IMG/VR virus record: IMGVR_UViG_3300036823_000389
Span: 1 to 64,000 of that record
Source of the DNA: a virus
Length of the DNA stretch: 64,000 nucleotides
Direction: 5' to 3' (one strand)
The notes beneath the pieces are model-generated. The model saw nothing but the letters and a program-made list of their open reading frames with translations, did not search any database and was not told the origin of the DNA. The stretch's first letter is position 1; each line of letters starts with the position of its first letter. The translations under genes and the position numbers were made by a program. This document shows, piece by piece, positions 895 to 63,092 of the stretch.

Positions 895-1413
895 ATGCAG
901 ACTTGGACCACATTCTACGAAATGCTCGGCGGCGCCGCGGCGACTCTGCTGGGGCTTTTGTTCGTCTCGGTGTCGCTCAACGCCGAAGCGATCCTCGGAG
1001 CGGCGCACCAACATACCAAGCGCCTCGCGGAGCAGGCGTTCCAGAACTATCTGTGCGTCCTCCTGATCTCGTTGCTGGTGTGCTTTCCCGGCATGCGGCC
1101 GGCCAGCCTGGGTCAATCGGTGCTGTGGACGACGGGCATCTGGGCGTTCTGGGTGGTCTCGCGCATCTATCTGGTGCTGACGGGACCGGTCGCCGATGAA
1201 TCGCGCATCCGTTCCTTGCGCCGCTACATCACGACCTTCATCGGCTTCGGCGCCCTGATCTGCGGCGGCGTCATGCTGCTCCTGGGACAGGGCGACTACA
1301 CCGATTTCATCGGCATCGGCGCGATCCTGTTGCTGATCTCCGCCACCGTCGTATCGTGGGAATTGCTGATCCGCATCGCCGAGCGGCGCTATGCCCCGCG
1401 CCGGGACGAATGA
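895..1413 (+). CDS. Hypothetical integral membrane protein
   Basis: 172 residues with about four hydrophobic segments: AAATLLGLLFVSVSL near residue 15, CVLLISLLVCF near 53, IWAFWVVSRIYLVL near 82, and two at the C-terminus (FIGFGALICGGVMLLL, IGAILLLISATVVSW). No enzymatic motif is seen. The stop overlaps the ATG of the alkylsulfatase-like gene (ATGA at 1410-1413), so the two are translationally coupled. Function unknown. Confidence 0.75.
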   Translation: MQTWTTFYEMLGGAAATLLGLLFVSVSLNAEAILGAAHQHTKRLAEQAFQNYLCVLLISLLVCFPGMRPASLGQSVLWTTGIWAFWVVSRIYLVLTGPVADESRIRSLRRYITTFIGFGALICGGVMLLLGQGDYTDFIGIGAILLLISATVVSWELLIRIAERRYAPRRDE

Positions 1414-7368: not shown

Positions 7369-7459
7369 GGCGTCCTCATTTCACTGTGAGAACATTAGAA
7401 GAACAAATCCGGAGACGAGTCTAGAGGGGAGCCAAGTTCCGTGCCGGACGTTGACGGAC

Positions 7460-7657
7460 ATGACCCGGTCCGACGCGCCCCGAAAACCAGCCAAACCCTT
7501 GAAAAAGGTGGTGCCGATGCCCGCTTACGATATCGTGTGGAACGACGACCGTGGCCGCTTCGAGGTGATGGTGGCGGGCCAGATGGTCGGCTTTCATCGT
7601 CTCCGCGGCGGTGCGGAGGCGCTCGGTGCACGTGTCGTGGCCAAGCCGACCCGCTAA
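7460..7657 (+). CDS. Small basic hypothetical protein
   Basis: 65 residues. The conserved-looking part is the last 46 residues, starting MPAYDIVWNDDRGRFEVMVAG (internal ATG at 7517), which may be the true start. It ends 32 bp before the SRAP gene and is probably co-transcribed with it. Function unknown. Confidence 0.5.
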   Translation: MTRSDAPRKPAKPLKKVVPMPAYDIVWNDDRGRFEVMVAGQMVGFHRLRGGAEALGARVVAKPTR

Positions 7658-7689
7658 GATGCCTACCTTGCAACCCATCGGAGCTTGCC

Positions 7690-8394
7690 ATGTGCCGCGA
7701 CTATGAACGCGAACGCGCCTGGCGCGAGCATCAGAAGCTGCTGGAGCAAGAGTACCAGCGCCGCCAGCGCCAGCAGCTCAAGATCGTGTCGCCGGCAGCC
7801 GAGCCGAATACCTATCAGGCCTCGGACACCGCCCCGACCGATCCCGCGCCGATCATCCGCGCAGCCGAGAGCGGCTATGGCTGCGAGCTGGCCACCGCGC
7901 GCTGGTGGTTCGTGCCGGACACCTATCGCGGCACGCTCGACGACTTCCGCAAGAAGGAGAAGCTCAGCACCTTCAACGCGCGGAGCGACCGCATCGCCAA
8001 GTCACCCACCTTCCGCAAGGCCTTCGTCTCCGGCCGCTGTCTCGTACCGGCGTCTGGCTGGTACGAATGGACAGAGCCGCCGGGCTGGAAAAAGGGCACA
8101 CCCAAAACCAAATGGCGCTTCACGATAGGAGACCACGAGCCGATTTTCCTCGCGGGCATCTGCAGCCATATCCAGAACGGCGGCGATCCGACCTTCACCT
8201 TCGCATTGGTGACGCACGCGGCTGGCGCCGGCGTCGACGCGTATCATGATCGTGCGCCTTTCGTGCTGCCACCCGAGACATGGGCCGATTGGCTTGATCC
8301 AGGCTACGACGCGCCGCTCGATCTCATACCGGAAGCGAGCGCGCCCGATGCATACCGGGTCGAATACGTCAGTGGGACAGGGCCGGCGGACTAA
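7690..8394 (+). CDS. SRAP-domain protein (HMCES/YedK family)
   Basis: 234 residues. The initiator Met is followed directly by Cys2, the residue that in this family becomes N-terminal and forms a thiazolidine crosslink with abasic sites in single-stranded DNA. The other active-site elements are present: FNARSD, then GWYEW with the catalytic Glu, and YHDRAPFVLP in the position of the family's H-x-R-M-P. The N-terminal insertion (residues 5-60) is longer and more glutamine-rich than in YedK. SRAP genes are common in phages of Alphaproteobacteria. It is followed by palindrome A and a bidirectional terminator. Confidence 0.9.
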   Translation: MCRDYERERAWREHQKLLEQEYQRRQRQQLKIVSPAAEPNTYQASDTAPTDPAPIIRAAESGYGCELATARWWFVPDTYRGTLDDFRKKEKLSTFNARSDRIAKSPTFRKAFVSGRCLVPASGWYEWTEPPGWKKGTPKTKWRFTIGDHEPIFLAGICSHIQNGGDPTFTFALVTHAAGAGVDAYHDRAPFVLPPETWADWLDPGYDAPLDLIPEASAPDAYRVEYVSGTGPAD

Positions 8395-40292: not shown

Positions 40293-40516
40293 GTGCAGTC
40301 CTCCCATGGGCGTCCGCGCAACACAGTGAGCGGAGCGGTAGGTCCGCCAGCCATCGCGATCGCTGCGGCGCCGTCCATCATTTGTCTGCGCAGAGCTTGG
40401 GCGCGCCAGAAGTCACATACGGCCACCTGCGCACCGTACGGAATCAGCGGCCGCCCGTCGGCGTGGTCGCGCTTCCAAACAGCCATGAAGCGATTGTATT
40501 GATCCTGCGAGATCAT
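40289..40516 (-). CDS. Small hypothetical early protein
   Basis: 75 residues, mostly helical (QDQYNRFMAVWKRDHADG; ALRRQMMDGAAAIAM). Overlaps both neighbours by four bases. Function unknown. Confidence 0.6.
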   Translation of the reverse strand: MISQDQYNRFMAVWKRDHADGRPLIPYGAQVAVCDFWRAQALRRQMMDGAAAIAMAGGPTAPLTVLRGRPWEDCT

Positions 40517-43017
40517 TCCGCGGCCTCCAGCGGTTGATCGAGGTCGAACAGAGACGGCGCCAGACGCTGGCGCTCCGCCTGCTCCAGATAGAAGGCGCTG
40601 TCCTTGAAATAGGACGGGCTGAGCTCGGACGATTGCCCGAGCCGCCCCATCAACACGGCGCGATAGGGCACGGTCCCAAGCCCACCAAACGGGTCATAGA
40701 CCAACTCGTTTTCCATGCTGAACCGCCGGATGAGCCGGTCGACGATGTCGAATTGGAGCGGGCAGACATGCTGCTCGACATTGCGCTGCGACTGCTTGCC
40801 GTTGAGCGTCTGCATGCGGTTGACGTCGTGCCAGGTATTTTCATCCACGCCGGCTGGCGCCAGCGACATGAAGCTCGACGGCAGAGCCTGCTTAGCCTGC
40901 AGGGCCTCCCCGATGCGCACATGCCACTCGTGGTCGTAGACGTGGTCGCTGGTATAGTTGGTGAATAGCGTCGCCAGCTTTTGCGGACCGTAGCTGGCCA
41001 GTTCTTCCGGCGTCAGCAGGCGGTCACCGCTCGATCTCCAGAAGGCATGGGCGTCGATCTGCCAGCGCGCCAGCGAATACGCCTCCTTCGACTTGACGAT
41101 GGGCGTGTCCGCATAGCTGCGCAACCGATCCGACTGAGGCTTGTGGAAAAGCAGGACGTATTCGGGACAGCCGACGCCGGTCTTGCTGCCGTCCTTGCAC
41201 ATCTCGGTGTAGCCGAGGCGGTAGGTCTGGTTGTTCTCACGCACGACGTCGGTGTTGATGTGCACCATGCCGCAGTAATCGAAACCGTGGCGGCGGTAGT
41301 GCATGATCGCTTCTGCATGGAATGGGCTGATCGTCGGAAGGCCTGCGCCTGTGACGTTGCCGAACAGCACCCGGTCTTTGACGTGGATGCAGGCGAGCCG
41401 GCCCGGCTTCAAGATCCGGAGAAGCTCCGGCGTCAGGAAGTCCATCTGCTTCCAGAAGTGCTCGTTGTTGTCGGTGTGACCGAAGTCGTCAAAGAGCGGC
41501 GTGTACTCGTAGTGATTGGCGAACGGTATCGACGTCACGATGAGGTCGACCGCGTTGTGAGGCTGCAGTCGTGCCTCGGCCACGCAATCGTTGTTCGCGA
41601 TGACGTAGCGCTCGCCGCGAACCTCCTGACGCGTCACGCCGATCGTGCGCTTCAGGCCGAGCTCCATGTCCTTGTGGCTGAGACCGTACCGCTGGATGAT
41701 CTCCGCCATCTTGGCGCGCATCTCGGTGTCGCGCGCCCATTTGTCCATCAGGCCGCGCAGCACCTCGCGCTCGGCTTCGGAGTGGATGATGTCGATGCGG
41801 CAGGCCTGCTTCTGGCCAAAGCGCAGGATGCGGTGCACCGCTTGGATGAAGTCGTTGAAGTCGTAGTCGATGCCCGCGAAGATCGCGCGGTGGCAGTGCT
41901 TCTGGAAATTCGACCCTGACCCGCTGAGCTCGGGCTTCGTCGCGAAGCGGCGCGTCACTCCGTTCTTGAAGTCCGCGAGCCGGACCTCGCGCTTGTCCAG
42001 GTCGAGCGTGCCGAAGATACTCACGACGTCGGGGATCGTAGTCTCGATCAGGCGCCGCTCGTCTTCCAGGTTATGCCAGAGCAGGAAGTGCTCGTCCGGA
42101 TCGTGCGCGACGATCTCCGCCATCTTGGCGATGCGCGCCGGCATGCTGTCGCGCTTCTCGCGCGCCGCTTCCGTCACACCCTTGGCAGGATCGGAAAACA
42201 GCATGCCCTGCCCGTCACGCTCTACGGTGGCGCCGGCGTGGTTGGACTGCACCTCGTGGAAACGGACATCCAGCGGCGGCATGACATATCCGTCGTCGCT
42301 GAATCCGAGGTCGCTGGGCTTCTGGACGAACAAAGCCCAAGAATGGACCCAAAACCAGAACTCCTGCTCTTTGTGAGGGTAGAGCGTAAGATTACCGGCA
42401 TTCTCGCTGTCGCGCTGGAAGAACCGGGTCAGCGCCTGGCCCGTGTCCATCACCCCAAGGAAGCCGGCGTAGTGGATCAGTTCCTTGTACCGGTTCGGCG
42501 ACGGCGTGGCCGTCGCGACGAAGCGATACGGCACCTCCGCGAACAGCGGCATGAACTCCTGATAGGTCTTGCTGCCGTAGCTGCGAAGAACGGACGCCTC
42601 GTCCAGGCTGGCGCCGGCGAACAGGTTGGGGTCGAGCTTGCGCTCGCGGATCGTCTCATAGTTGGTGAGGTGGACGTCGACGTCCGGGTCGATCTCGTCG
42701 GCGTCGCGGATGAACTTTAACCTGCGGCCCATCTGTTTGGCGTCGTCAAGGAACTCACCACGCACCCCAAGCGGGATCACGTTGAGCGTGGGCCGGCCGG
42801 TGCGGCGCTGCACCGCCGTCAGGATCTCGATCTGCTGGCTCGTCTTGTGCAGCCCAAACGCTTCGAACAGTGCACGCCGCCCACCCTTCAAGGCCCATTG
42901 TACCGCGACCGCGGCATGCGGCTTCAACCAATCGTTCAGGTCCTCGCGCGCGACATCGAACCCGCTGAATTCGGCGAGCTTGATTTTCTGCTCAAGGAAG
43001 GCGCGATAGGCGTCCAT
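40513..43017 (-). CDS. Helicase-DNA methyltransferase fusion
   Basis: 834 residues from the ATG at 43015-43017. Residues 1-400 are an SF2/SNF2 helicase with degenerate Walker A (FGLHKTSQQIE), DEAS box (LDEASVLRSYGS), TATPSPNRYKE and motif VI QAVHRILRFGQ. Residues 490-834 are a DNA amino-methyltransferase of circularly permuted order: catalytic motif TSIPF near 515, then the AdoMet motif DPFGGLGTVPYRA near 780. The helicase may remodel DNA ahead of methylation or drive a phage restriction-like activity. The next gene is an MT-A70 protein that abuts it. Confidence 0.82.
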   Translation of the reverse strand: MDAYRAFLEQKIKLAEFSGFDVAREDLNDWLKPHAAVAVQWALKGGRRALFEAFGLHKTSQQIEILTAVQRRTGRPTLNVIPLGVRGEFLDDAKQMGRRLKFIRDADEIDPDVDVHLTNYETIRERKLDPNLFAGASLDEASVLRSYGSKTYQEFMPLFAEVPYRFVATATPSPNRYKELIHYAGFLGVMDTGQALTRFFQRDSENAGNLTLYPHKEQEFWFWVHSWALFVQKPSDLGFSDDGYVMPPLDVRFHEVQSNHAGATVERDGQGMLFSDPAKGVTEAAREKRDSMPARIAKMAEIVAHDPDEHFLLWHNLEDERRLIETTIPDVVSIFGTLDLDKREVRLADFKNGVTRRFATKPELSGSGSNFQKHCHRAIFAGIDYDFNDFIQAVHRILRFGQKQACRIDIIHSEAEREVLRGLMDKWARDTEMRAKMAEIIQRYGLSHKDMELGLKRTIGVTRQEVRGERYVIANNDCVAEARLQPHNAVDLIVTSIPFANHYEYTPLFDDFGHTDNNEHFWKQMDFLTPELLRILKPGRLACIHVKDRVLFGNVTGAGLPTISPFHAEAIMHYRRHGFDYCGMVHINTDVVRENNQTYRLGYTEMCKDGSKTGVGCPEYVLLFHKPQSDRLRSYADTPIVKSKEAYSLARWQIDAHAFWRSSGDRLLTPEELASYGPQKLATLFTNYTSDHVYDHEWHVRIGEALQAKQALPSSFMSLAPAGVDENTWHDVNRMQTLNGKQSQRNVEQHVCPLQFDIVDRLIRRFSMENELVYDPFGGLGTVPYRAVLMGRLGQSSELSPSYFKDSAFYLEQAERQRLAPSLFDLDQPLEAAE

Positions 43018-44666
43018 CAGTCTGCGGCCTCCGGTTTTGGGTTGGTGCGAAGGAGGAACGCGGGGATTTCGTTCGGCTCGCGTTTGGCGACCGCCGGCCG
43101 TGGTGGCGTCGGTGCCGCGGACGTCGGTATTGGCGCAGCATCCTGCAGCACGAGAACATCGGAGACCTTGCGCGCCGTGCTGGGCCCGAAGGGTTTGAAC
43201 TTCCCGCCCACCCAAAGCCCGCCAAGACACGGCGGCCCGTCTCGCTCCTCACCTTCAGGAGTTGCGGCACTCTCTCCGCCCGTCACGACCGTAGAGGTGT
43301 TGCCGACCTCGCTGTCGTTGCGATCCGGTTCGCGCCCGGCTGAACCGGCAACCGTCACTGCATTCTGTCCGTCGAACACCTCACCGGTATCCGGATCGTG
43401 ACTGGATGCGCCTTTCACTGGCGCTTCGTTCCCCCAGGCATCCCAGCCGCGGCGGGCGCCGCGCGCGTTGAGCTCAATCCTCGGCAGATTGGGAAAATGC
43501 TCTTCAACCCATTCGTGCACATCCGGCGGCTTAGCCGAATGTCTGTCGCGCTCGGATTCCGCCAGATGCGGCCGCGCCGCGAAGATAACACTTTCGCCTT
43601 GCGTACCCATGGACGGCGCCGGAACGTGACCTCGCGTGGCAATGATCAGGTGCTCGCTGCGGTCACGATTCCAGAAACCGGTTCCGGCGGGCCCGACTTC
43701 TGCAAACACGCGACCTTTCAGCTCTAAAGCCAATGCGAAATTCGCGGGAACATCGATCGCAACGATGTCTTTGACCCATGTGCGCATGGACTTGAATTTG
43801 AAGCCCCAAGCCTGAACGACACGAAGCGCATCGGGGAGCATTGGGTTGGTCGCCCATAACAGCAGCAAGCAATCGTCGGCTGCGATATCGCCGACAGGGC
43901 GCGCCGCGATATCGTCGGTGGTGCTGGTGGGGTAGTGATTGGCCGCTGCGCGGTCCTGACCGGTTTGTTCGTTGTAGACCTCGAACCGCCATTCGGGGTC
44001 GGCCAAGATGACCCCATATTTTTTCGTCGGAAGTGCTGTCTGTTTGGCACCGAGCGATTGCTCACGCGCCGTGCGCGAGGCGCGCTTCAGGATCGTGCGC
44101 AACACCCTGACGGCGCCGCTCTCCGCCTGCTGCGCGATCTGCATCTGGAACGCTGGCGTGAGCTTCGCGGCCTGCGCCGCCATGTCGACGGCGATTAATC
44201 CGCGCTCCATGGCCGCGGCAAGTTCGGGGGTTGCGTCCCGCTGGACCTGTTTCGCGCGTTCGACAGAGCGCGGCTTGACGTTGAGCATTCGCGCCGCGTC
44301 GGCCACGGAAATACCGCCAATTGGCGGAGTTTCGTCGGAGGGCCGGCCAGGCGTGAGGGTCGATATTCTCGCGGCCACAGACTGCCGCTGACCGTCGGTC
44401 ATGTGCCGACGATGCAGGTTCTCCGAAATGACGAAGTCGAGCGCTTCGCGATACGTCCCATGAAACGTCTCCAGCGGGGTCACGTCCACGTCCGCAGCCT
44501 CGCCGGCACGGTACCGATTGCGGCCGTCGAGTATCAGACCTTCGAACAACCAAATCTTGTTGCGGATGCCATGCTGCTTCACGTCGGCCACGAGATCGTC
44601 GAATGCCGGACCTTCGATCAGTGGGAAGACATTAGCCAATGGGTGAAAACCGAGGGTCTCTCTCAT
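43017..44666 (-). CDS. ParB-like / MT-A70 methyltransferase fusion
   Basis: 549 residues. Residues 1-100 form a ParB/Srx-like domain (LANVFPLIEGPAFDDLVADVKQHGIRNKIWLFEGLILDGRNRY). A HTH and an insertion with palindrome D (ETPPIGG, near 120) follow. Residues 210-400 form an MT-A70 adenine methyltransferase with motif ADPEWRF (variant of DPPW) and LLLLWATN. The C-terminal 130 residues are low complexity. It abuts the helicase-methyltransferase stop. Confidence 0.82.
   Translation of the reverse strand: MRETLGFHPLANVFPLIEGPAFDDLVADVKQHGIRNKIWLFEGLILDGRNRYRAGEAADVDVTPLETFHGTYREALDFVISENLHRRHMTDGQRQSVAARISTLTPGRPSDETPPIGGISVADAARMLNVKPRSVERAKQVQRDATPELAAAMERGLIAVDMAAQAAKLTPAFQMQIAQQAESGAVRVLRTILKRASRTAREQSLGAKQTALPTKKYGVILADPEWRFEVYNEQTGQDRAAANHYPTSTTDDIAARPVGDIAADDCLLLLWATNPMLPDALRVVQAWGFKFKSMRTWVKDIVAIDVPANFALALELKGRVFAEVGPAGTGFWNRDRSEHLIIATRGHVPAPSMGTQGESVIFAARPHLAESERDRHSAKPPDVHEWVEEHFPNLPRIELNARGARRGWDAWGNEAPVKGASSHDPDTGEVFDGQNAVTVAGSAGREPDRNDSEVGNTSTVVTGGESAATPEGEERDGPPCLGGLWVGGKFKPFGPSTARKVSDVLVLQDAAPIPTSAAPTPPRPAVAKREPNEIPAFLLRTNPKPEAAD
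44310..44331. repeat. Palindromic element, copy D
   Basis: Core CCGCCAATTGGCGG with an imperfect outer arm, followed by GTTTC. In the minus frame it encodes ETPPIGG within the ParB/MT-A70 protein, between the ParB and HTH parts. Confidence 0.85.
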
Positions 44667-46458: not shown

Positions 46459-46652
46459 CGCGCGCCTCGCAGTCCGGCGGGATGCTTCACCAAGATCAGA
46501 CACTCGATGATTTCGGATTCGACCGCCTTCTTGAAATCGATCGCGTCATTCACGCGGTCTTCGCCGCCACGATCACCGGCCTGTTCGATCCGCTGGTCGG
46601 CAAAATCGAGCTGACGACGGAAATGGCGGACAGCCTCGAGGATGGCGCTCAT
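46455..46652 (-). CDS. Small hypothetical early protein
   Basis: 65 residues, helical and charged (LEAVRHFRRQLDFADQRIEQAGDRG). Overlaps both neighbours. Function unknown. Confidence 0.5.
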   Translation of the reverse strand: MSAILEAVRHFRRQLDFADQRIEQAGDRGGEDRVNDAIDFKKAVESEIIECLILVKHPAGLRGAR

Positions 46653-49078
46653 GCGGCCCTCGCAATTGTGGTATTGGGCTTCTTCTTTGAGCGCGGCGCG
46701 GCGTCCGCCATGAGCGCACCGACCTCGGCCTCCATCATGCGCACGGAGACGGCGTTGCCGATCTGCTTGATCTGTTCGGTCTTGGTGCCGGCGAACTTGT
46801 AGCCGTCCATGCCCATCGCGGGCGCCAGCTCATGCGGCTCCAACATCCGGAACAGGATGTCGTATTCGCGGCCATCAAAGGCGGCTGTCACCACGCCGTG
46901 CGCCAGGTCAACATGGCCTGTGGCGGCAATGGTCGGTGTGGGAGCGTCGATGCTGTGGACGCGCGGCTCCTGGCCTTGGCGCTCGCCGTGCTGGGCGGTG
47001 ATAAAGGCAAGATCGCCGCGATTCGCCCCGGTCACTGTGGGAAGCGGGCTTTCGTTCGGGTCCTGCACGCGGTCATGACCGCCTTCGTGCGTGACGGGCA
47101 CCACAAGGGCGAATTCGCCACCCTTTGCGGTGGTCATCGTCGGGACAGGATCCTCGACGCTGCGGGCGATCGGTCCGCCACCCCCATTGGTGACAGGAAC
47201 GACCATGCCGAACCGTGACTTCGCGGTAACTGTCGGCAGCGGTGCTTCCGCGCTTTGGCAGGTCTCGCCCGAACCCGAACCGTAGTAGGGCGAGATCAGG
47301 ACATGGGACTGCTTGGCAACCTGTGTCGGCGTCGGTTCTTCGATCGACCGCGGTGCGCCGCCGGCATGGCGAGAGAGGACGAAGGGCTTGATCAAGTAGC
47401 CGGCACCGCGGCAGTCCAATGTCGGCGATGGCTCTTCGACGGAATGCGCCCGGACGCCACCATTTTCGCCGTGCCGGTTGAGAATAAACGGTTCGATGAC
47501 AGCGTAGGCGCTGCCGTCGCCATGGATTGTCCCCAGCGGTTCGTCGATACTGTTGGCGCGGCGCGCGTTCGGGTTCTTCTCGCTCGCGTCATTGCCATGC
47601 GCCACCGTTGCAATGAATGGCCCGACCAACACATGACGCGCGCAGCCAGGGTGATCGCCCGTGCCCGCGCCGCCGGTGGTAATCGTCGGCAGCGGCTCAT
47701 CGGTCGAGCGCGGCGAGCCGCTATTCTGTTGCGACAAGACAAAAGGTTCGGCGAGCCATACCCCACCTTTTGTGTCCAGGGTGGGAACGGGGTCGGTCGA
47801 TACAGATTTCGCCTGGTTGCCCTTGCGGCCGTTCATGATAACCGGTTCGGCAACGGCTATGCCGCCGTCGGTCGTGATGGTCATGAGCGGATCCTCGACA
47901 CCGCGCGCACCGGGCGACAGGCGTCCATGCATGTTTGTTCGAACGATCACTGGTTCGGCTAGGCCTATGCGCGCTTCCGTCATGATTGTCGGTGCCGGGC
48001 TGTCGACGCTCACCGAATCTCGACGGAAGTTCTGCTTGAGCATGATCGGCTGCGCCAAACCGATGTGGTTGCCGTTTGCCGCAATAGTTGGCGCCGGTGC
48101 ATCCACGCTCGACGCCGCCATGTGGTTGCGCAGCGTGATCAATGCAGGGTCGGCAGAACGCGCCGCATCCCATTCCGGGGTTCTAGGCTGGACCAACCCT
48201 GCCACCTCCCTCTCTCGGATGTATGACGTTTCGGGTGCTGCGCGTAGGCCGACGGCAACCTCCATGTGCTTTCTGAGTGCTTCCTTGAACGGCTCTGGCC
48301 AGTTGAACTTGACCGCGCCGGCATAAATGCGCGCAAGCGTCTTTGCAGCGAGCGGCTTTTTGCGATTGAAGATCGACTTGCCTTTAAGCTTCCAGTCGAT
48401 GATCTCGCGCGCCGGCCGCCATGGTTTCATGCCGGGAAAGAGATCGAGCTTGCCCTCCTCACGCTTGTGGTGGGTCAGCGGCGCCCATGCCATCGACTTG
48501 CCGTCGAAGCGGATTTTCATGATGAAGCGCTGACGCGTGGTGGCTTCGCCATAGTTAGCGGCGTTCAGCTTGCGCCACTCGACGCTGGTGGCGCCGAGCT
48601 TCCAAATCGTGTCGACCCAGGCGCGGAAATACTCACCCTTACGCGATAGGATCGGCTTTCCGGTGCGCGTATCGACAGGTCCCCAGCTAGTGAATTCCCA
48701 CACGTTCTCGATGATTGCGGTCTTGACGCGCAACTCGGTGAACCACGGGATGATGTGCCATGGGTCGCTGCGCTGTTGATCGCTGGTAGGTTTGCCGCCC
48801 CTTGCGACGGAATGATGGGTGCATGTCGGTGACGCCATCAGGAGGTCGAGATATCCCTCGGGCACGATCAGATGTGGCCGCACCGTCGCGATGTCCTGTA
48901 CGTAGTGGCGAGCCTTCGGATGATTGAGCTCGTGGGTCTTGATCGCGGTCGGCCAGTGGTTGAGACAAACCAGCTCCATCTCGAGCCCGAGCGTCTTCAA
49001 CGCCTTCTCTGCGCCGGTGGATGATCCGCCCGCACCGCAGAGCAGGTCGGCAACAAGGATCTTGCGTTGACGCTTCAT
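46649..49078 (-). CDS. C5-cytosine DNA methyltransferase with 12 internal repeats
   Basis: 809 residues. The catalytic part is normal in order: motif I (LLCGAGGSSTGAEKAL), motif IV (ASPTCTHHS, with the nucleophilic Cys in a PTC rather than PPC setting), motif VI (IENVWEF), motif VIII (RQRFIMK), and motifs IX/X (QIGNAVSVRM near residue 780). Between VIII and IX, about residues 310-725, lie 12 repeats of 30-43 residues, consensus S-V/I-D-x-P-x-P-T-I ... L-x-x-P-x-V/I. These occupy the target-recognition position. Usual phage enzymes are 350-500 residues. Probably a broad- or multi-specific methylase protecting the phage from host restriction. Confidence 0.9.
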   Translation of the reverse strand: MKRQRKILVADLLCGAGGSSTGAEKALKTLGLEMELVCLNHWPTAIKTHELNHPKARHYVQDIATVRPHLIVPEGYLDLLMASPTCTHHSVARGGKPTSDQQRSDPWHIIPWFTELRVKTAIIENVWEFTSWGPVDTRTGKPILSRKGEYFRAWVDTIWKLGATSVEWRKLNAANYGEATTRQRFIMKIRFDGKSMAWAPLTHHKREEGKLDLFPGMKPWRPAREIIDWKLKGKSIFNRKKPLAAKTLARIYAGAVKFNWPEPFKEALRKHMEVAVGLRAAPETSYIREREVAGLVQPRTPEWDAARSADPALITLRNHMAASSVDAPAPTIAANGNHIGLAQPIMLKQNFRRDSVSVDSPAPTIMTEARIGLAEPVIVRTNMHGRLSPGARGVEDPLMTITTDGGIAVAEPVIMNGRKGNQAKSVSTDPVPTLDTKGGVWLAEPFVLSQQNSGSPRSTDEPLPTITTGGAGTGDHPGCARHVLVGPFIATVAHGNDASEKNPNARRANSIDEPLGTIHGDGSAYAVIEPFILNRHGENGGVRAHSVEEPSPTLDCRGAGYLIKPFVLSRHAGGAPRSIEEPTPTQVAKQSHVLISPYYGSGSGETCQSAEAPLPTVTAKSRFGMVVPVTNGGGGPIARSVEDPVPTMTTAKGGEFALVVPVTHEGGHDRVQDPNESPLPTVTGANRGDLAFITAQHGERQGQEPRVHSIDAPTPTIAATGHVDLAHGVVTAAFDGREYDILFRMLEPHELAPAMGMDGYKFAGTKTEQIKQIGNAVSVRMMEAEVGALMADAAPRSKKKPNTTIARAA

Positions 49079-49839
49079 GCCGCCGCGTCCTCCGGCCAAA
49101 GTACTTGCTCGCCCTTACCGGCTCCTTCGAATTCCCAATTCCAGACGGATGGCTTGCCGGTGACGATTTCTAGATAGGAGCCATCGACCTTTTCCCGCCG
49201 TACGAACTTGGCGACGAAGTTGAACTCGCCACGCGTCTCGCAGCGCCAAACAGCGCCCTCTGGTGTTTCGAGTGCGCCGTGATGCCCGAATGGCCCCAAG
49301 GCCTTCAGAGCGTCCTCAACGGCGAAGGCCGGACCATCCGACAACACCGCAGCTGCGCGCAGATCACACTGCTTGAATAGCTCGCGCGCGCCGTCGTGGT
49401 TGTGCCGCGACTTTCCGCAGATCAGGTCGAACGCGACCAACAGTTCGCCCTCGTCGGCGATCAAGTATCGCGTGCCGTGCGCCTGGGCGAGCCATTCGCC
49501 GGCGATGCGCGCACCTTTTGGAATGTGGCGCGAGAATCGAGCAGCGCGTTCCTGCACCCATTCGGCGAAGCGATGGTGCTGCACATAATGAGAATCAGCG
49601 GCGTGATAGCCAGCCCGGGTCAGCGGCACGATCGCGCCGTCGATGTTCGCGATAGCGACACACGAACCGTCGAGCTTCTCGGTCACGATGATGCGGTCAT
49701 GCCGGTCGCGGATCCTGTCGCACAGGATCGCGGCCTGGCCGGCGCCGATGCTCCAGTCTCCTGGACCCAACCGGCTGTTCGGCAGATGCGGGATGCTGCC
49801 GTATGCCTTTCGCGCGAGCGGTTTGCTGGGCTTGTTCAT
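49075..49839 (-). CDS. RNA ligase
   Basis: 254 residues. Nucleotidyltransferase motifs appear in order: EKLDGS (K55 as the adenylated Lys), GARIAGEW (motif III), LLVAFDLI (IIIa), EGAVWRCE (IV) and FVAKFVR (V). The family repairs RNA, for example tRNAs cut during antiphage responses. It overlaps the C5 methyltransferase start by four bases. Confidence 0.85.
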   Translation of the reverse strand: MNKPSKPLARKAYGSIPHLPNSRLGPGDWSIGAGQAAILCDRIRDRHDRIIVTEKLDGSCVAIANIDGAIVPLTRAGYHAADSHYVQHHRFAEWVQERAARFSRHIPKGARIAGEWLAQAHGTRYLIADEGELLVAFDLICGKSRHNHDGARELFKQCDLRAAAVLSDGPAFAVEDALKALGPFGHHGALETPEGAVWRCETRGEFNFVAKFVRREKVDGSYLEIVTGKPSVWNWEFEGAGKGEQVLWPEDAAA

Positions 49840-53430: not shown

Positions 53431-54051
53431 ATGAACGCGATTGCCCAATTACGAGCGGAGCGCGGCTGGTCCCAAGAGGATCTAGCGGAAAAGCTCAACA
53501 CGACTGCGGTCTCAGTCGGACGTTATGAAAAGCAGGATCAACGGCTGACGCTGCCACTTATGCGAAGGGTGGCGAAGGTTTTTCGCGTTTCGGTCGCCCA
53601 AGTAGCTGGCGAAGCAAGCAGCACGCCGCTCGACCACACTGGCGTGCCTGTCTACGACGTCCGTGCCGCCGCCGGCGCTGGAGCTTTTTTAGTGGATGAA
53701 CAGAGCGAGCCATCGCACTACCTAATGTTTCGCGAGCAATGGTTGCGGCGAGTCTCGCGCGATATTTCACAGCTTATAGTGCTGGAGGTGTCGGGTGATT
53801 CAATGTGGGATACACTCCATGATGGTGATCACGCTTTAGTTGATCGGTCACAGCTTAACCCACGTAGAGAAGGCCTTTACGTCCTAAGAATTGACGACGT
53901 GCTCCAAGTCAAAAGGCTTTCGATGCACCCCGTATCAAAGCTTCTGACAATCAAGAGTGATAACGCGAATTACCCGACTTATTCCGACATAAATCCCGAC
54001 GATATTGCGCTGGTTGGCAGAGTTGTTTGGATAGGGAGGGCACTGGGATGA
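53431..54051 (+). CDS. CI-like S24 repressor
   Basis: 206 residues. N-terminal HTH (RGWSQEDLAEKLNTTAVSVGRYE). The S24 peptidase domain has an Ala-Gly cleavage region (AAAGAGAF, 79-86), Ser124 (SGDSMWDTLHDG) and Lys161 (VLQVKRL). LexA-like self-cleavage triggered by RecA would link induction to DNA damage. No ribosome-binding site precedes the ATG. The stop overlaps the next gene. Confidence 0.92.
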   Translation: MNAIAQLRAERGWSQEDLAEKLNTTAVSVGRYEKQDQRLTLPLMRRVAKVFRVSVAQVAGEASSTPLDHTGVPVYDVRAAAGAGAFLVDEQSEPSHYLMFREQWLRRVSRDISQLIVLEVSGDSMWDTLHDGDHALVDRSQLNPRREGLYVLRIDDVLQVKRLSMHPVSKLLTIKSDNANYPTYSDINPDDIALVGRVVWIGRALG

Positions 54052-57194: not shown

Positions 57195-58112
57195 ATGAAC
57201 GCACACGTAAAGCCGCATGCCACAGCGCCGACGCTGATCAGACCGGACGCGAGTTCGCCCGTCTTCAAGGTGACCGACCGCGACAGCCTAGTCGTGAAGG
57301 CCGGAACGACCTTCGCCGCTCACACCTTCGCCGGAGACACTGCGGTTCCGCTTCACCTCAACGCCGGTGCCGAGCCCGGGTATGTCCCGGGCGCCGATTA
57401 TGTCGTCAACTTCGATGGCACCACTCTGTCGGTCGCGCGCCTGACCGGTATCCCGGATGGCGAGACGTTGCTCGGTGGCTTCCACTACGCGCCAGGCGGC
57501 AATGCGCCAGCGCGCAGCGGCGGCGACGATATCCCCGCGATCAATCCCTTCTCGCTGTGGGACATCGCATTCCGGCCCTCCTGCCCCGACCCGCGCGGGA
57601 TGGCGCTGGTCGAGACGCCCAGTGGCTGCTTCTGGTGCGACATTTACCTGACCGGATCGAATCATCTGGCCGACGGCACGAGCAAGTTCGGCGTGACCAT
57701 CGCCGATGGCAATGACCCGCCGCACGATGCCAATGGCACGAAGTACAGAAGGTTCGACTTTGCGACGGCGCAGGCCGCGATGGTGTCGCATGGCAAGGGG
57801 TTGCTCAGCATCGAGGAGTTCTTCGGCGCGGCATTCGGCGTCACCGAGAAAACGGCGGCGGCACGCGACCCGAAAACCACCGGCCTCGACGCAGCGCGCA
57901 CTAGCCGCTTCGGCCTGATGCAGGCGACGGGCAATCTGTGGATCTGGGGCCACGACGCCGACCCCGACATGCCGCGTGCTTCGCTCTTCGGCGGGTCCTG
58001 GCTCGGCGACGAGGACGCGGGCTCGCGCTACGCGGACCTCGGCTACTGGCCGGGCGACTCGGACGGCGGCGTCGGCGCGCGCGGGCGCAGTGACCACCTG
58101 CAGCTTGCATAG
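57195..58112 (+). CDS. DGR target protein 1 (variable protein, C-type-lectin fold)
   Basis: 305 residues. The N-terminal 95 form a beta-rich domain. The second half shows the DGR-target hallmarks of Mtd-like C-type-lectin domains: LWDIAFRPSCPDPRGMALV, FWCDIYLTGSNHL, FGVTEKTAA, FGLMQATGNLW, then FGGSW, AGSR and a final GARGRSDHL. Residues 259-300 are encoded by VR1 and contain 13 sites where template adenines were replaced. No signal peptide, so display is expected on the virion or by a phage-specific route rather than by the Sec system. The ATG at 57195 is used; an upstream TTG in frame is less likely. Confidence 0.9.
   Translation: MNAHVKPHATAPTLIRPDASSPVFKVTDRDSLVVKAGTTFAAHTFAGDTAVPLHLNAGAEPGYVPGADYVVNFDGTTLSVARLTGIPDGETLLGGFHYAPGGNAPARSGGDDIPAINPFSLWDIAFRPSCPDPRGMALVETPSGCFWCDIYLTGSNHLADGTSKFGVTIADGNDPPHDANGTKYRRFDFATAQAAMVSHGKGLLSIEEFFGAAFGVTEKTAAARDPKTTGLDAARTSRFGLMQATGNLWIWGHDADPDMPRASLFGGSWLGDEDAGSRYADLGYWPGDSDGGVGARGRSDHLQLA
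57969..58094 (+). repeat. DGR variable repeat 1 (VR1)
   Basis: 126 bp aligning without gaps to the template at 59482-59607. It differs at 14 template adenines and one other base (T to G at 57995). Ends with the GC-rich stretch GGCGCGCGCGGGCGC plus AGTGAC, identical in TR (the IMH region). Confidence 0.93.
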
Positions 58113-58130
58113 AAGCCGCGACAGCGGCTT
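58113..58130 (+). other. Target-site hairpin after VR1
   Basis: AAGCCGC, loop GACA, GCGGCTT: a perfect 7-bp stem with a GRNA-type tetraloop, 18 bp after VR1 and just past the stop codon. Bordetella-type DGR targets carry similar stems with GRNA loops just downstream of the IMH. Confidence 0.75.
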
Positions 58131-58154
58131 CCCAAAACTCTCAACAGGGACACC

Positions 58155-59072
58155 ATGACCATGAAAAAGCGGATCACGAAGAAGAAGGCAGGCGCGCCGA
58201 AGGCGATGCTCGTCAAACGCGACAAAACAAGCCCTGCAATCAAGGCTGCCGGTCTCAGCGCTATGCTGCGGGCGGGCGTCACGTTTCGCGGGGTCGCCTT
58301 CAAGAAGGACACGGCCGTCAAGGCGCCTGCCGTGGGCTATGCGGTGGGCTTCGATTACATCGTGACCATCGTGCGCGGCGCGCCGGTTGCGCAGCTGATG
58401 GAGACGGCCCGCATTCCCGCAAACGCGATCGGAGGCTTCCACTTTGCCCCTGGTGGCAATGCCACGGGCAAAGCTGGCGGCGACGGTACGCCGGCGATCA
58501 ATCCTCATTCCATTTGGGACCGGAATTTTCGTCCGGCCTGCGGTGATCCGCGCGGCATGACGCTGGTGAACGTACCCGGCAAGAGCCGCGTCTGGTGCGA
58601 TATCTACCTGCTCGGCAAAGACCATCTCGAGAACGGCACGAGCCGGCATGGAGCGACAATAGCGGACGGCACGGACCTGCCGCAAAACCCCGCTGGTGGC
58701 TATTTTTCGCGGTTCGATTACGCCGCGGCATGCGCGGTGATGAACCATCACGGCAAGCAGCTTCTCGGTGCCGAAGAGTTCTTCGCAGCAGCTTATGGCG
58801 TCACCGAGAAAACCGCTGCGCAGGCGGAGCCGAAAACAACGGGCCTCGATGCGCTACGAACGAGCCAGTGGGGCTTGATGCAAGCGACGGGCAACATGTG
58901 GTCATGGGGCACAGACGGTCACCCCGATATGCCGCGTGCTTCGTTCTTCGGCGGTTCCTGGCTCTCCGACGAGGGCGCGGGCTCGCGCTTCGCGGCCCTC
59001 GCCAGCTGGCCGGACTACTCCAGCGACTACATCGGCGCGCGCGGGCGCAGTGACCACCTGCAACTTGCATAG
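58155..59072 (+). CDS. DGR target protein 2 (variable protein, C-type-lectin fold)
   Basis: 305 residues, same length as target 1 and with the same domain plan; the N-terminus is more basic (MKKRITKKKAGAPKAMLVKRD) and the N-terminal domains have diverged. Conserved core: IWDRNFRPACGDPRGMTLV, VWCDIYLLGKDHL, FAAAYGVTEKTAA, WGLMQATGNMWSWG, FGGSW and GARGRSDHL. Residues 259-300 come from VR2. The two proteins look like paralogues able to be varied from one template. Confidence 0.9.
   Translation: MTMKKRITKKKAGAPKAMLVKRDKTSPAIKAAGLSAMLRAGVTFRGVAFKKDTAVKAPAVGYAVGFDYIVTIVRGAPVAQLMETARIPANAIGGFHFAPGGNATGKAGGDGTPAINPHSIWDRNFRPACGDPRGMTLVNVPGKSRVWCDIYLLGKDHLENGTSRHGATIADGTDLPQNPAGGYFSRFDYAAACAVMNHHGKQLLGAEEFFAAAYGVTEKTAAQAEPKTTGLDALRTSQWGLMQATGNMWSWGTDGHPDMPRASFFGGSWLSDEGAGSRFAALASWPDYSSDYIGARGRSDHLQLA
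58929..59054 (+). repeat. DGR variable repeat 2 (VR2)
   Basis: 126 bp aligning without gaps to the template. It differs at 13 template adenines and one other base (G to C at 59021). Ends in the same IMH region as VR1 and the template. Confidence 0.93.
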
Positions 59073-59091
59073 CCGACGCGACAGCGGCGGC
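59072..59091 (+). other. Target-site hairpin after VR2
   Basis: GCCGaCGC, loop GACA, GCGgCGGC: an 8-bp stem with one A-G mismatch and the same GACA tetraloop. Same position relative to the VR as the first hairpin. Confidence 0.7.
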
Positions 59092-59107
59092 ACGAGATTT
59101 TCGCGCG

Positions 59108-59479
59108 ATGATCACCAGGGATGACAACACCAGCACCGACGCCCTGGCGATCGTCGAGAAATACGAGACGTTTGTGAAATATCTGTACCCGATCGTTCAG
59201 CGAAGCCCAAAGCACCACGGCGTCCTCCGGGACGCCGTGATTGCGGAAATGTTCGTCACGGTCGGCGATCTCTATCACGCTGCAAAGTCGCGGCAGCTCT
59301 CACGGCTCTACCAGGTCGATGCGCGCTTCGCGACGCTGCGTTCCTATCTGCGCTTCCTCGCCAGCCACGAGATACGCGTCCTCACGCCGAAGAACAACGC
59401 TCATGCCTTGAGCCTGCTCTCGGAACCGGGGCGCATGCTCGGCGCTTGGCAAAAGAAGCTCAGAGGGCAGAAGGGGTAA
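59108..59479 (+). CDS. avd: DGR accessory variability protein (Avd-like)
   Basis: 123 residues. IVEKYETFVKYLYPIVQRSPKHHGVLRDAVIAEMF and the later FATLRSYLRFLASHEIRVLTPK are the four-helix-bundle signature of Avd, which forms a positively charged pentamer and works with the reverse transcriptase in cDNA synthesis. It lies between VR2 and TR, the common DGR order. Its stop is three bases before TR. Confidence 0.92.
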   Translation: MITRDDNTSTDALAIVEKYETFVKYLYPIVQRSPKHHGVLRDAVIAEMFVTVGDLYHAAKSRQLSRLYQVDARFATLRSYLRFLASHEIRVLTPKNNAHALSLLSEPGRMLGAWQKKLRGQKG

Positions 59480-59481
59480 GT

Positions 59482-59607
59482 ATGCCGCGTGCTTCGATCT
59501 TCGGCGGTTCCTGGCTCAACGACGAGAACGCGGGCTCGCGCTACGCGAACCTCGACAACTGGCCGGACAACTCGAACGACAACATCGGCGCGCGCGGGCG
59601 CAGTGAC
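59482..59607 (+). ncRNA. DGR template repeat (TR)
   Basis: 126 bp with 25 adenines and seven AAC codons in the VR reading frame, typical of DGR templates because adenine changes in AAY codons give wide amino-acid range without stops. Both VRs derive from it. It is followed after the identical GC stretch by GACCGGAAT, where the VRs have CACCTGCA (IMH* versus IMH). The template RNA probably continues into the reverse transcriptase gene. Confidence 0.93.
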
Positions 59608-59793
59608 GACCGGAATACGACGCGGCGGCGATTACGGTCCCGCCGGTCTTCCACGGCCGCGCGTAAGCGGTTTCGGTGGTCAGCCCATCTGTCCTGCTTC
59701 GGCGAACACACTCCAAGGTCCGGCATAGCGGGGCGTAGCGGAGCAACCCGTCGAGACCCGCGGCCGGCTTTCTTTTCAATAGGAGGCGACCAC

Positions 59794-60795
59794 ATGACCA
59801 GGCGGTTCAGGAATCTGATCGGCAAGATCGTCTCCCAGGCGAACATGGCCGAAGCCTATCGCCTGACCTGCGCCGGCAAGCGGCAGACGCCCGGCTATCT
59901 TGAGTTCAAGGAATATGCATCGCTCAACCTCGCAGACCTCGCTCGGGACATGGCCGAAGGGAGATACGTCGCCGGCGCGCCCTATGAGTTCCATGTGTTC
60001 GATCCGAAAAAGCGTTTGATCTCGGCGCTGCCGTTCCGCGATCGCGTCGCTCAGCAGGCGTTGTGTCTCGTCATCGGACCGATCTTCGAAGCTGCACTCT
60101 TGCCTCGGACCTTCGCCTGCCGTCCAGGCAAGGGCGTGCATGCCGGTGTCGTGCAACTGCAAAGCGAGATGCGCCATCTCACGCGGGGCGGCTCAGCGCT
60201 CTATTTCCTCAAGACCGATTTCCGCGGCTATTTCGCTTCGATCAATCGCACGATCCTATGGCGGCTGATCGAAGCGAAGATTTCCTGCCGCGCGACGCTG
60301 CGGCTGATCGAGACGATGGTCCCTCGCAAGGGCGTTGGCTTGCCGATCGGAAGCCTGACATCGCAGATCTTAGCCAACCTCTATCTGGGCGCGACGCTCG
60401 ACCGTCACCTGCAGCAGACGCTCGGCGAGCGCGCCTGGTATCGCTACATGGACGACATCGTTGTGCTCGGCGCCGATCCCGATCATCTGCGAAGCCTTAA
60501 GACATCGATTGAGGCCTACGCGCGCGACCGGCTCGGCCTCGCCTTTTCGAAATGGAGCATCGCCAGCGTCGCGCGCGGGGTAAATTTCCTCGGCTATCGG
60601 GTCTGGACTACCCACAAGCTGCTGCGCAAGGCCAGCGTCACGCGGGCGCGACGGAAGCTCAAGGCCTATCGCGCGCGCGGCGATGCGGAACGGCTACGGA
60701 AGTTCAAGGCCGCATGGCTGGGCCATGCGAGCTGGGCCGACAGCGCCAATCTGATCAAGAGCTTGGGCCTGCAGAATCCAGAGAGGCGCACATGA
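59794..60795 (+). CDS. DGR reverse transcriptase
   Basis: 333 residues from the ATG after AGGAGG (59781-59786). An earlier in-frame start would translate TR and is not used. Motifs: ALPFRDRVAQQALC, LKTDFRGYFASI near 140, GVGLPIGSLTSQILANLYL with the DGR-type SQ (190-191) in place of the usual QG, and RYMDDIVVLG (catalytic YMDD, 218-221). C-terminal thumb ends AWLGHASWADSANL. It makes adenine-mutagenised cDNA from TR that replaces VR. Confidence 0.95.
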   Translation: MTRRFRNLIGKIVSQANMAEAYRLTCAGKRQTPGYLEFKEYASLNLADLARDMAEGRYVAGAPYEFHVFDPKKRLISALPFRDRVAQQALCLVIGPIFEAALLPRTFACRPGKGVHAGVVQLQSEMRHLTRGGSALYFLKTDFRGYFASINRTILWRLIEAKISCRATLRLIETMVPRKGVGLPIGSLTSQILANLYLGATLDRHLQQTLGERAWYRYMDDIVVLGADPDHLRSLKTSIEAYARDRLGLAFSKWSIASVARGVNFLGYRVWTTHKLLRKASVTRARRKLKAYRARGDAERLRKFKAAWLGHASWADSANLIKSLGLQNPERRT

Positions 60796-60842
60796 TCCAT
60801 CGCAGCAGAGAAATCCAACGTCAGACCGAGCGAGAACCCTGA
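60792..60842 (+). CDS. Sixteen-codon bridging frame
   Basis: Begins at an ATGA overlap with the RT stop and ends with a TGA whose A is the first base of the next ATG. Probably only couples translation of RT to the next gene. Confidence 0.25.
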   Translation: MIHRSREIQRQTEREP

Positions 60843-61975
60843 TGTCCGACACAAAGACACCCAAACATGGGACCGGAATTGAATGGACCAAGCGACCCGG
60901 AACGCGTGGCGAGACCCTCAATCCAATCCGGGCGCGCAACCGCGAAACGGGCAAGCTCGGATGGTTCTGCATCCACGCTAACCCCGACTGCATCAACTGC
61001 TATGCCGAGACCCTGAACGTGAAAGGCGGCGATTCCGGCGGCAATGGCATCGCGTACAAGGCGCAGCTAGTCGACCGCGTTGAAATCTCCCTGGACGAGG
61101 ACCGCGTGACGCAGCCGCTGCGGTGGCGCCAGCCGCGCACGATCTTCCTCTGCTCGATGACCGACCTTTTTGTGGACTTCGTTCCATTCCCGTGGATCGA
61201 CCGCGTCTTCGCGGTCGCAGCGCTGGCGCCGCAACATACTTACATCATTTTGACGAAGCGCCCGAAGCGGATGCGAGATTATTTTAATGGCACGCCGCAG
61301 CCGCGCTGGATGGCTGCAATGCGAGAGATCGCGCCGCCGGCCGACAGCCGCGGCGTTCCGCTCGACACCAAAAATGGCGCGTTGCCAAATGTCTGGCTCG
61401 GGACGAGCTGCGGCACGCAGAAGACTGCCGATGAGTTCATTCCCGATCTGCTCGCCACGCCGGCGGCCGTACGATTTGTATCGGTTGAGCCGATGACCGG
61501 GCCTGTCGATCTCTATAATGGCGACCCGGATCCTCGTCTTGGCGGGCATCAGGCGACGCAGACGTTCTTGGGAGAATGGTGGGAGCCCGGCGCCGCGAAG
61601 AATTCGCCGCCTCACCACGGGCTCGATTGGGTGATCTGCGGCGGCGAGAGCGGCCCCAAGGCGCGGCCGATGCATCCGGAGTGGGCGCGGTCGCTCCGCG
61701 ACCAATGCGCCGCGGCTGACGTTCCGTTCTTCTTCAAGCAATGGGGAGAATGGGCCCCGGGCGAGAACAGCGATCGCGCCCAGACCCGCACCGAGCGAAC
61801 GGCGTCCTGGTCCGTTGACGCATGGACGTTCGAAAACATCACCGCGAGCTATTCGCAGGAGATGCATGCCGACGACGAGCCCGATCTGTGGCGCCTTGGG
61901 AAGAAACAGGCCGGCCGGATGCTCGATGGACGCACACATGACGAATTTCCGCTGGTCCGAGGTTGTCGAACATGA
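60842..61975 (+). CDS. Phage Gp37/Gp68-like protein (DUF5131)
   Basis: 377 residues. GIEWTKRPGTRGETLNPIRA, CIHANPDCINCYAE and ILTKRPKRM mark the DUF5131 family, whose fold and three-cysteine start recall radical-SAM enzymes, although the classical CxxxCxxC is not exact. Later WVICGGESGPKARPMHPEWARSLRDQC is also family-specific. Function unknown. Confidence 0.85.
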   Translation: MSDTKTPKHGTGIEWTKRPGTRGETLNPIRARNRETGKLGWFCIHANPDCINCYAETLNVKGGDSGGNGIAYKAQLVDRVEISLDEDRVTQPLRWRQPRTIFLCSMTDLFVDFVPFPWIDRVFAVAALAPQHTYIILTKRPKRMRDYFNGTPQPRWMAAMREIAPPADSRGVPLDTKNGALPNVWLGTSCGTQKTADEFIPDLLATPAAVRFVSVEPMTGPVDLYNGDPDPRLGGHQATQTFLGEWWEPGAAKNSPPHHGLDWVICGGESGPKARPMHPEWARSLRDQCAAADVPFFFKQWGEWAPGENSDRAQTRTERTASWSVDAWTFENITASYSQEMHADDEPDLWRLGKKQAGRMLDGRTHDEFPLVRGCRT

Positions 61976-62211
61976 CCGTCCGGATCACAGCGTGGAAAAA
62001 GACGATCGACGGGCTGCTGGCATGCGAGCCCGGTGACATCTTGGCCGTTGCCTGGGATGTCCGCTATCCGGGCTCCTTCTTCGGAATGCCGCTCCAATTC
62101 GAGGATCGTCACCAGGCAGAGCGGATTGCACATGCGCTTTCGGTGGCGTTCCGGGCCGGCGGCGAAGCCAAGCTCCGCGAGCTGCGGCAGTTCATAGGGA
62201 TATTGCCATGA
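61972..62211 (+). CDS. Small hypothetical protein
   Basis: 79 residues from the ATG in an ATGA overlap. ITAWKKTIDGLLACEPGDILAVAWDVRYPG and a helical C-terminus. Coupled to the next gene. Function unknown. Confidence 0.55.
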   Translation: MTVRITAWKKTIDGLLACEPGDILAVAWDVRYPGSFFGMPLQFEDRHQAERIAHALSVAFRAGGEAKLRELRQFIGILP

Positions 62212-63092
62212 CGCCCGCGGCTGCGCTTCGCCATTGGGTTTGCGAGCGGGAAGCAATTAGGCTGCGCCGGGAGACAGGCACGCTGACGCCGTGGACCGAT
62301 GATCCGATCCTCGCGAAATACCGCTTCTGCAATGTGCGGCGCGAGGACGACAGGGTCACCATCTGGATACGCGAAAACATCCGCGAGAAGTTCGCCGATC
62401 ATCCCCACCTCTGGTTCATGTTGGCGATTGGGCGCTGGATCAACTGGCCGGACACGCTTGTGGAGCTGATCGGTAGCATCGACCCGGGCCAAGCTTGGCC
62501 CAGCGGCCCCGGCTTCACGCTGCGCCACCTTTCTGACGTCCTGCATCGGCGCGAGGCGCGCGGTGAGAAGGTTTGGACGGGCGCCTACACCATCAATGCG
62601 CCGTCGAAGAAAGGCGGCTCGAAGATCGACCATGTCGCGATGACGGTGCTGGGCGGGGTATGGCTTGCGCGAGACCGTATCAGCCGCATGCTGGAGGGCG
62701 TTCGCACGCCGGCGACGTTACGCGCCGCACATGCGGAGTTGTTGAGCTATCCGGGCTGGGGCGCGTTCATGGCCTATCAGCTCGTGGTCGATCTTCGGTT
62801 CACGCGGTACCTCGCCGGTGCCGAGGACATCGCGACCTGGGCCGCGGCGGGGCCCGGCACCATTCGCGGCCTAAATCGCATCGCCGGCCGGCAACTCGAC
62901 TACCGGTTGGAGCAGTGGCAAGCGCTTAACGAAATGCGCACGCTGTTCGCTACGATCCAAGGGGAGATTGGCGTCGCGATGGATTTCTCCGACGTGCCTA
63001 ACATCCTCTGCGAGACCGATAAGTATCTGCGAGTGCTGAACGAGGAAGGAACGCCGCGCGCACTGTACCATCCGCATGGGGGACGCTTATGA
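62208..63092 (+). CDS. Putative DNA base hypermodification protein (aGPT-Pplase type)
   Basis: 294 residues. HWVCEREAIRLRRETGTLTPWTDDPILAKYRFCNV followed by REDDRVTIWI is the signature of proteins proposed to act on 5-hydroxymethyluracil-derived pyrophosphates in phage DNA hypermodification. The later WGAFMAYQLVVDLRFTRYL is also typical. It would need a hydroxymethyl-pyrimidine synthase not seen in the window. Coupled by ATGA. Confidence 0.75.
   Translation: MTPAAALRHWVCEREAIRLRRETGTLTPWTDDPILAKYRFCNVRREDDRVTIWIRENIREKFADHPHLWFMLAIGRWINWPDTLVELIGSIDPGQAWPSGPGFTLRHLSDVLHRREARGEKVWTGAYTINAPSKKGGSKIDHVAMTVLGGVWLARDRISRMLEGVRTPATLRAAHAELLSYPGWGAFMAYQLVVDLRFTRYLAGAEDIATWAAAGPGTIRGLNRIAGRQLDYRLEQWQALNEMRTLFATIQGEIGVAMDFSDVPNILCETDKYLRVLNEEGTPRALYHPHGGRL

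Follow-up and report, generated by a model that had tools for sequence, protein, structure and literature searches.

The diversity-generating retroelement (DGR) of Bordetella phage BPP-1 has the gene order mtd-avd-TR-brt, with a single target gene encoding the receptor-binding protein Mtd and a template repeat (TR) that is out of frame with the gene of the reverse transcriptase (RT), Brt. BPP-1 requires a hairpin behind its VR, and GC-rich stems of 7–10 bp with a GRNA loop are common to phage DGRs (PMC3240598). Multiple VRs were found in about 1/7 of the DGRs in one survey, which lists Magnetospirillum and Rhodomicrobium (PMC3521204), and in 28.6% of those in another (PMC6642488). The gut phages nd4 and nd12 (tentaclins) similarly combine one TR with two targets, although these differ in architecture (PMC10743442). 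Finally, a paper on the ACA phages states that translation of the TR there extends the RT at its N terminus, an arrangement it calls not common (PMC10612066), and DiGReF lists cassettes with the TR overlapping one end of the RT ORF (PMC3521204).

We analyzed a window of 64,000 nucleotides, positions 1 to 64,000 of an IMG/VR virus record that is 65,431 bases long in full. From open reading frames and the sequence at 56–62.5 kb, we located all parts of a cassette on the plus strand in the order target 1, target 2, avd, TR, spacer, and RT; by these parts it is a complete, apparently intact BPP-1-type DGR of a known kind. An earlier sequence-only reading had proposed a complete DGR here. Its features are the following:

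57195..58112, +, target gene 1, Mtd-like C-type-lectin protein, 305 aa (PHROG, Pfam, and PDB matches)
57969..58094, +, VR1, 126 bp, 3' end of target 1 (ungapped TR match)
58112..58131, +, hairpin/cruciform behind VR1, 8-bp stem, GACA loop (z −6.1)
58155..59072, +, target gene 2, Mtd-like C-type-lectin protein, 305 aa (PHROG, Mtd match, AlphaFold)
58929..59054, +, VR2, 126 bp, 3' end of target 2 (ungapped TR match)
59072..59091, +, hairpin/cruciform behind VR2, 8-bp stem including one mismatch, GACA loop
59108..59479, +, avd, accessory variability determinant, 123 aa (Pfam bAvd, PDB)
59482..59607, +, TR, 126 bp, 25 adenines (repeat alignment)
59641..59768, +, DGR spacer RNA (Rfam RF03022 Phage_DGR)
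59794..60795, +, RT core, 333 aa (Brt and 8ub7_A matches)
59482..60795, +, unbroken TR-spacer-RT frame, 437 aa (sequence)

The cassette shares with BPP-1 the order target-avd-TR-RT, the Avd protein, the spacer RNA, and the GRNA hairpin behind the VR (PMC3240598), with 54% identity to Brt and about 38% to Mtd. It differs in having two targets instead of one, in lying away from the tail genes, and in the TR being in frame with the RT. Our main reading, which we hold with a probability of about 95%, is that this is a BPP-1-type DGR of a probably temperate phage and that its one template diversifies two Mtd-like, receptor-binding-like proteins. As a well-preserved cassette with two Mtd-like paralogues, it is a further example of the type outside Bordetella.

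The three copies TR, VR1, and VR2 were recovered by a repeat search, and both VRs align to the TR without gaps. Among the 25 template adenines, 14 are changed in VR1 and 13 in VR2, while the only other differences within the 126 bp are a silent change at one T in VR1 and at one G in VR2. Such a concentration on adenines has a hypergeometric chance of 4e-11 for VR1 and 4e-10 for VR2; the first base past the end of the TR also differs in both VRs. The two VRs are altered differently, often at the same adenines, and the changes affect 12 codons in VR1 and 10 in VR2, 13 overall. The counts of replaced adenines and affected amino-acid positions in the sequence-only reading, and its description of the other bases as almost unchanged, were thus correct. 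The TR has seven AAC codons, and an A-to-N change cannot create a stop in any of its codons. A search for further VRs across the 65,431-base record returned none.

The same reading had suggested examining whether the VR differences of relatives concentrate at adenines. Target 2 as a query retrieved 42 viral loci and 5 genome loci; with an RT profile, 80 loci were obtained, some of them overlapping with these. In 51 TR-VR pairs from the relatives and the window, 623 of the 1,188 template adenines were changed (324 to G, 168 to T, and 131 to C, with 565 unchanged) in comparison with 18 of the 4,991 other bases; the pair finder favors A-specific pairs and these numbers are descriptive, whereas the window pair was tested free of that bias. 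At TR position 10, the TR and both VRs of the window have G while the TR and second VR of the closest relative have C, as is expected if each VR is rewritten from its own TR.

By sequence and predicted fold, both targets are homologous to Mtd, the receptor-binding protein of BPP-1. Each matches the tail protein family PHROG 11262 over nearly its full length (3.9e-75 for target 1 and 5.4e-77 for target 2) and the Mtd structures in PDB (8e-47 and 2.4e-45, respectively), and target 1 additionally has a Pfam mtd_2nd match. The AlphaFold model of target 2 (pLDDT 82.5) has a TM-score of 0.82 to Mtd 1yu0. Pfam, PDB, and AlphaFold together show an Mtd-type architecture of a beta-sandwich and a C-type lectin domain with the VR at the C terminus. 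The alignments start at Mtd residue 54–56 and the N-terminal domain of Mtd, its first ∼50 residues, is not matched by the targets; because of this, we call them Mtd-like rather than Mtd. We regard the two as putative tail or receptor-binding proteins, their tail location being suggested by the analogy with BPP-1. Outside (before) the VR, they are 52% identical and, as they do not group together in the tree of target proteins, the pair does not reflect a recent duplication. Being paralogues, they are unlike the two targets of nd4 and nd12.

The sequence-only reading considered two adjacent targets per template uncommon for such an element, which our data and the published surveys contradict. 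Among 32 deduplicated related cassettes with a recognized TR (target 2 set), 14 had one recognized VR, 17 had two, and 1 had three; 18 of the 32 thus have multiple VRs, and the surveys with their shares of about 1/7 to 28.6% include alphaproteobacteria. As judged from these sequences, the two-target layout is common within the clade, and paired targets are ordinary there. A closely related group is an alphaproteobacterial clade of Mtd-type DGRs (for example, L004, L045, L047, L048, and L049), known from sequence alone, that has 64–80% RT identity to the window, one to three targets per TR, and the same hairpins and spacer RNA core; unlike the window, some members have one target, and a Rhizobiales isolate (L048:6117-8906) has three tandem Mtd-like targets with one TR. 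In the middle VR of the latter, 13 of the 15 adenine changes are to G.

The remaining components also appear intact. Avd matches Pfam bAvd (1.9e-25), the PHROG "Avd protein of DGR," and, in PDB, the solved Bbp7 and Avd chains (4dwl/8ub7_B). Aligned over 96%, the RT shares 54% identity with Brt of BPP-1, and its best solved match is 8ub7_A (1.7e-108), an RT that was solved together with Avd. A YMDD RT with the DGR-type SQ motif had been claimed and is indeed present, with YMDD at residues 218–221 and IGSLTSQ at 185–191, the key residues of both being invariant in a 13-sequence alignment. The spacer at 59641–59768 is detected by Rfam RF03022 Phage_DGR with 73.4 bits (gathering threshold 50), and the same family is detected in BPP-1 and its relatives.

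Behind VR1, we found the hairpin GAAGCCGC-GACA-GCGGCTTC (58112–58131) and, behind VR2, GCCGACGC-GACA-GCGGCGGC (59072–59091), the stem of the latter having one mismatch. The TR flank in the window contains no hairpin of the GRNA type. The same asymmetry is seen more widely: the mean stem score was 6.8 in 49 VR flanks, 3.8 in TR flanks, and 3.0 in shuffles, and a score of 6 was reached by 69%, 6%, and 2% of them, respectively. Among the VR stems scoring at least 6, the loops fit GRNA in all 34 cases.

By analogy with BPP-1, the RT-Avd complex would bind an RNA spanning the avd end, the TR, and the spacer, and reverse transcription of the TR, error-prone at adenines, would yield a cDNA. This would then replace VR1 or VR2, with the shared GC-rich 3' sequence and the hairpin that follows each VR as guides. 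As the VR would form the ligand-facing end of the Mtd-like protein, one template could yield two independently varied receptor-binding-like proteins and, as in BPP-1, possibly allow switching of the host range. Counting against this explanation are that the data are a snapshot of one genome, the missing first ∼50 residues of Mtd, the distance of ∼26 kb from the tail block, and the mismatch in the VR2 hairpin.

Beyond the canonical parts, the RT frame of the window is open back to the start of the TR and not just from ATG 59794. An ATG at 59482, two bases past the avd stop, starts a 437-aa frame in which the TR is read as it is in the targets. The Pseudoalteromonas ACA1/ACA2 and Vibrio VP58.5 DGRs likewise have an in-frame TR extending the RT N-terminally from the avd stop (PMC10612066 for ACA), but they have one target in the stretch examined and RTs only 33–35% identical to that of the window. 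A fused frame is found in 3 of 10 other phage records (VP58.5, ACA1, and phiARM81mr); two of the ten are of BPP-1 type, and BPP-1 itself lacks the fusion.

To place this in the clade, we surveyed 47 nonredundant loci selected for an RT identity of 60% or more, with the window counted among them, assigning the VR frame by protein motif. The conserved spacer core was found in all 47 loci. The TR is in frame with the RT in 39 loci, with the frame open throughout in 37, and out of frame in 8; a subclade of L010, L031, L047, and L094 is out of frame. While the distance from the TR to the core varies from 74 to 213 nt, the core is in a single frame relative to the TR in 42 loci; the spacer indels keep the frame and the length differences are mostly in threes. 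Five loci show a shift of the core frame, for which well-supported branches of the RT tree require at least four changes; four of the five shifts are compensated before the RT, although one of these loci (L084) contains a stop. When the two frame steps were permuted, P was 0.002, with kinship ignored. Within the spacers, the RT frame has 8 stops in total, and the two other frames have 66 and 44; in a shuffle test of openness alone, also ignoring kinship, 41 of the 47 loci were open in comparison with 19.9 expected. In 31 loci, a start of the form ATGA or GTGA is found in frame close to the beginning of the TR, and in many of these it overlaps the avd stop. The spacer peptide is weakly conserved, with a pN/pS of 0.70 when read in frame with the RT, as compared with 0.89 and 1.24 for the two other frames. 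A functional peptide encoded by the spacer has little support, as the value of 0.70 compares with 0.18 in the RT itself.

We considered two alternatives to the reading of a working DGR with one template and two targets. The VRs could have been diversified in the past by an element that is no longer working, which a snapshot of a single genome and the one non-adenine difference in each VR would allow. We consider this unlikely, given that the RT, Avd, TR, spacer RNA, and both hairpins are intact and that the non-adenine changes amount to one silent change per VR and, across the relatives, to the 18 of 4,991 noted above; with so few of them, the rewriting of the VRs appears recent relative to drift. 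The other alternative, an additional adenine-to-guanine process such as deamination acting on VR1 beside the DGR, was raised by the 12 changes to G among the 14 in VR1, in comparison with 5 of 13 in VR2, and by the overdispersion of the G fraction among the 51 VRs (P = 0.008). Yet G is the most common replacement across the clade (52% in the 51 pairs), as it should be with dC as the predominant misincorporation, and dC misincorporation is 59% in a rebuilt BPP-1 system (PMC12875486); the VRs are moreover under selection. A second process is not needed to explain the excess in VR1, and we think it very improbable.

The fused frame is harder to interpret. TR-RT fusion is known from single cases, and its prevalence among the close relatives suggests selection on the frame; we found no description of it as a near-rule in such a clade in the limited collection of literature searched. 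One possibility, which we rate as less likely than not, is that the TR of this clade is a translated, frame-policed part of the RT gene, ribosomes entering at or near the avd stop and reading the TR and spacer into the RT. The frame could instead be inherited by chance and have no role, the RT being made from the internal ATG 59794 alone, which we rate as a serious possibility not far short of even odds. It would agree with the AGGAGG upstream of that ATG, a good ribosome-binding site, with BPP-1 lacking the fusion, with the eight out-of-frame relatives, and with the nearest relative, whose RT has its own start behind extra sequence containing stops. It does not readily account for the 37 in-frame and open loci, the spacer lengths differing in threes, the compensation of four of the five shifts, the scarcity of stops in the RT frame, or the starts at the avd end or TR start in 31 loci. 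If the translated TR is real, a master template that is otherwise unselected could not take up a nonsense or frameshift mutation without silencing the RT, and one RNA would act as message, as template, and as the structured RNA bound by the RT. A functional fused frame would help explain how the template is kept readable though selection acts on the copies alone and, for annotation, the RT genes of this clade may begin ∼100 codons before the start suggested by RT homology.

The closest relative, L001, has ∼318 extra nucleotides and a small ORF between the spacer RNA and the RT (2230–2555), which break its TR-RT frame.

The phage is probably temperate, as suggested by a tyrosine integrase domain at 65132–65377 of the record, past the end of the window, and a CI-like repressor encoded at 53431–54051; a resolvase-type integrase was looked for in this phage and not found. 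The terminase, portal, protease, capsid, tape-measure, and tail genes are on the minus strand, the DGR targets lying ∼26 kb away from the terminase/tail block and on the opposite strand. Kin of the DGR sit in contigs of Rhizobium, Mesorhizobium, a Rhizobiales isolate, and an Alphaproteobacteria MAG, making an alphaproteobacterial host plausible. Of the "alphaproteobacterial prophage" of the sequence-only reading, both the host and the prophage state are thus plausible, although the record itself is an IMG/VR virus.

Several other genes of the record deserve mention. On the plus strand 3' of the RT (60842–63092) are a DUF5131 protein (PF07505, 1.5e-78), also matching PADLOC candidate models, and a protein containing the helical domain of 5-hmdU DNA kinase (PF18723, 7.6e-49), a possible sign that thymine is hypermodified in the phage DNA. 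The minus strand encodes a cytosine-C5 methylase (46649–49099), the middle part of which is a long degenerate repeat array of the type SxxEPxPTI, and two more DNA methylases (40513–44666), one with a helicase and an N6/N4 methylase domain and the other an MT-A70 methylase with a ParB-like N-terminal part. Close to the left end of the record, an alkyl sulfatase of the metallo-beta-lactamase fold (1356–3290, +; PF14863/PF14864), matching phrog_8061, is possibly cargo or a host gene, and a SRAP (SOS response associated peptidase) domain protein (PF02586, 2e-39) is encoded at 7441–8394 (+).
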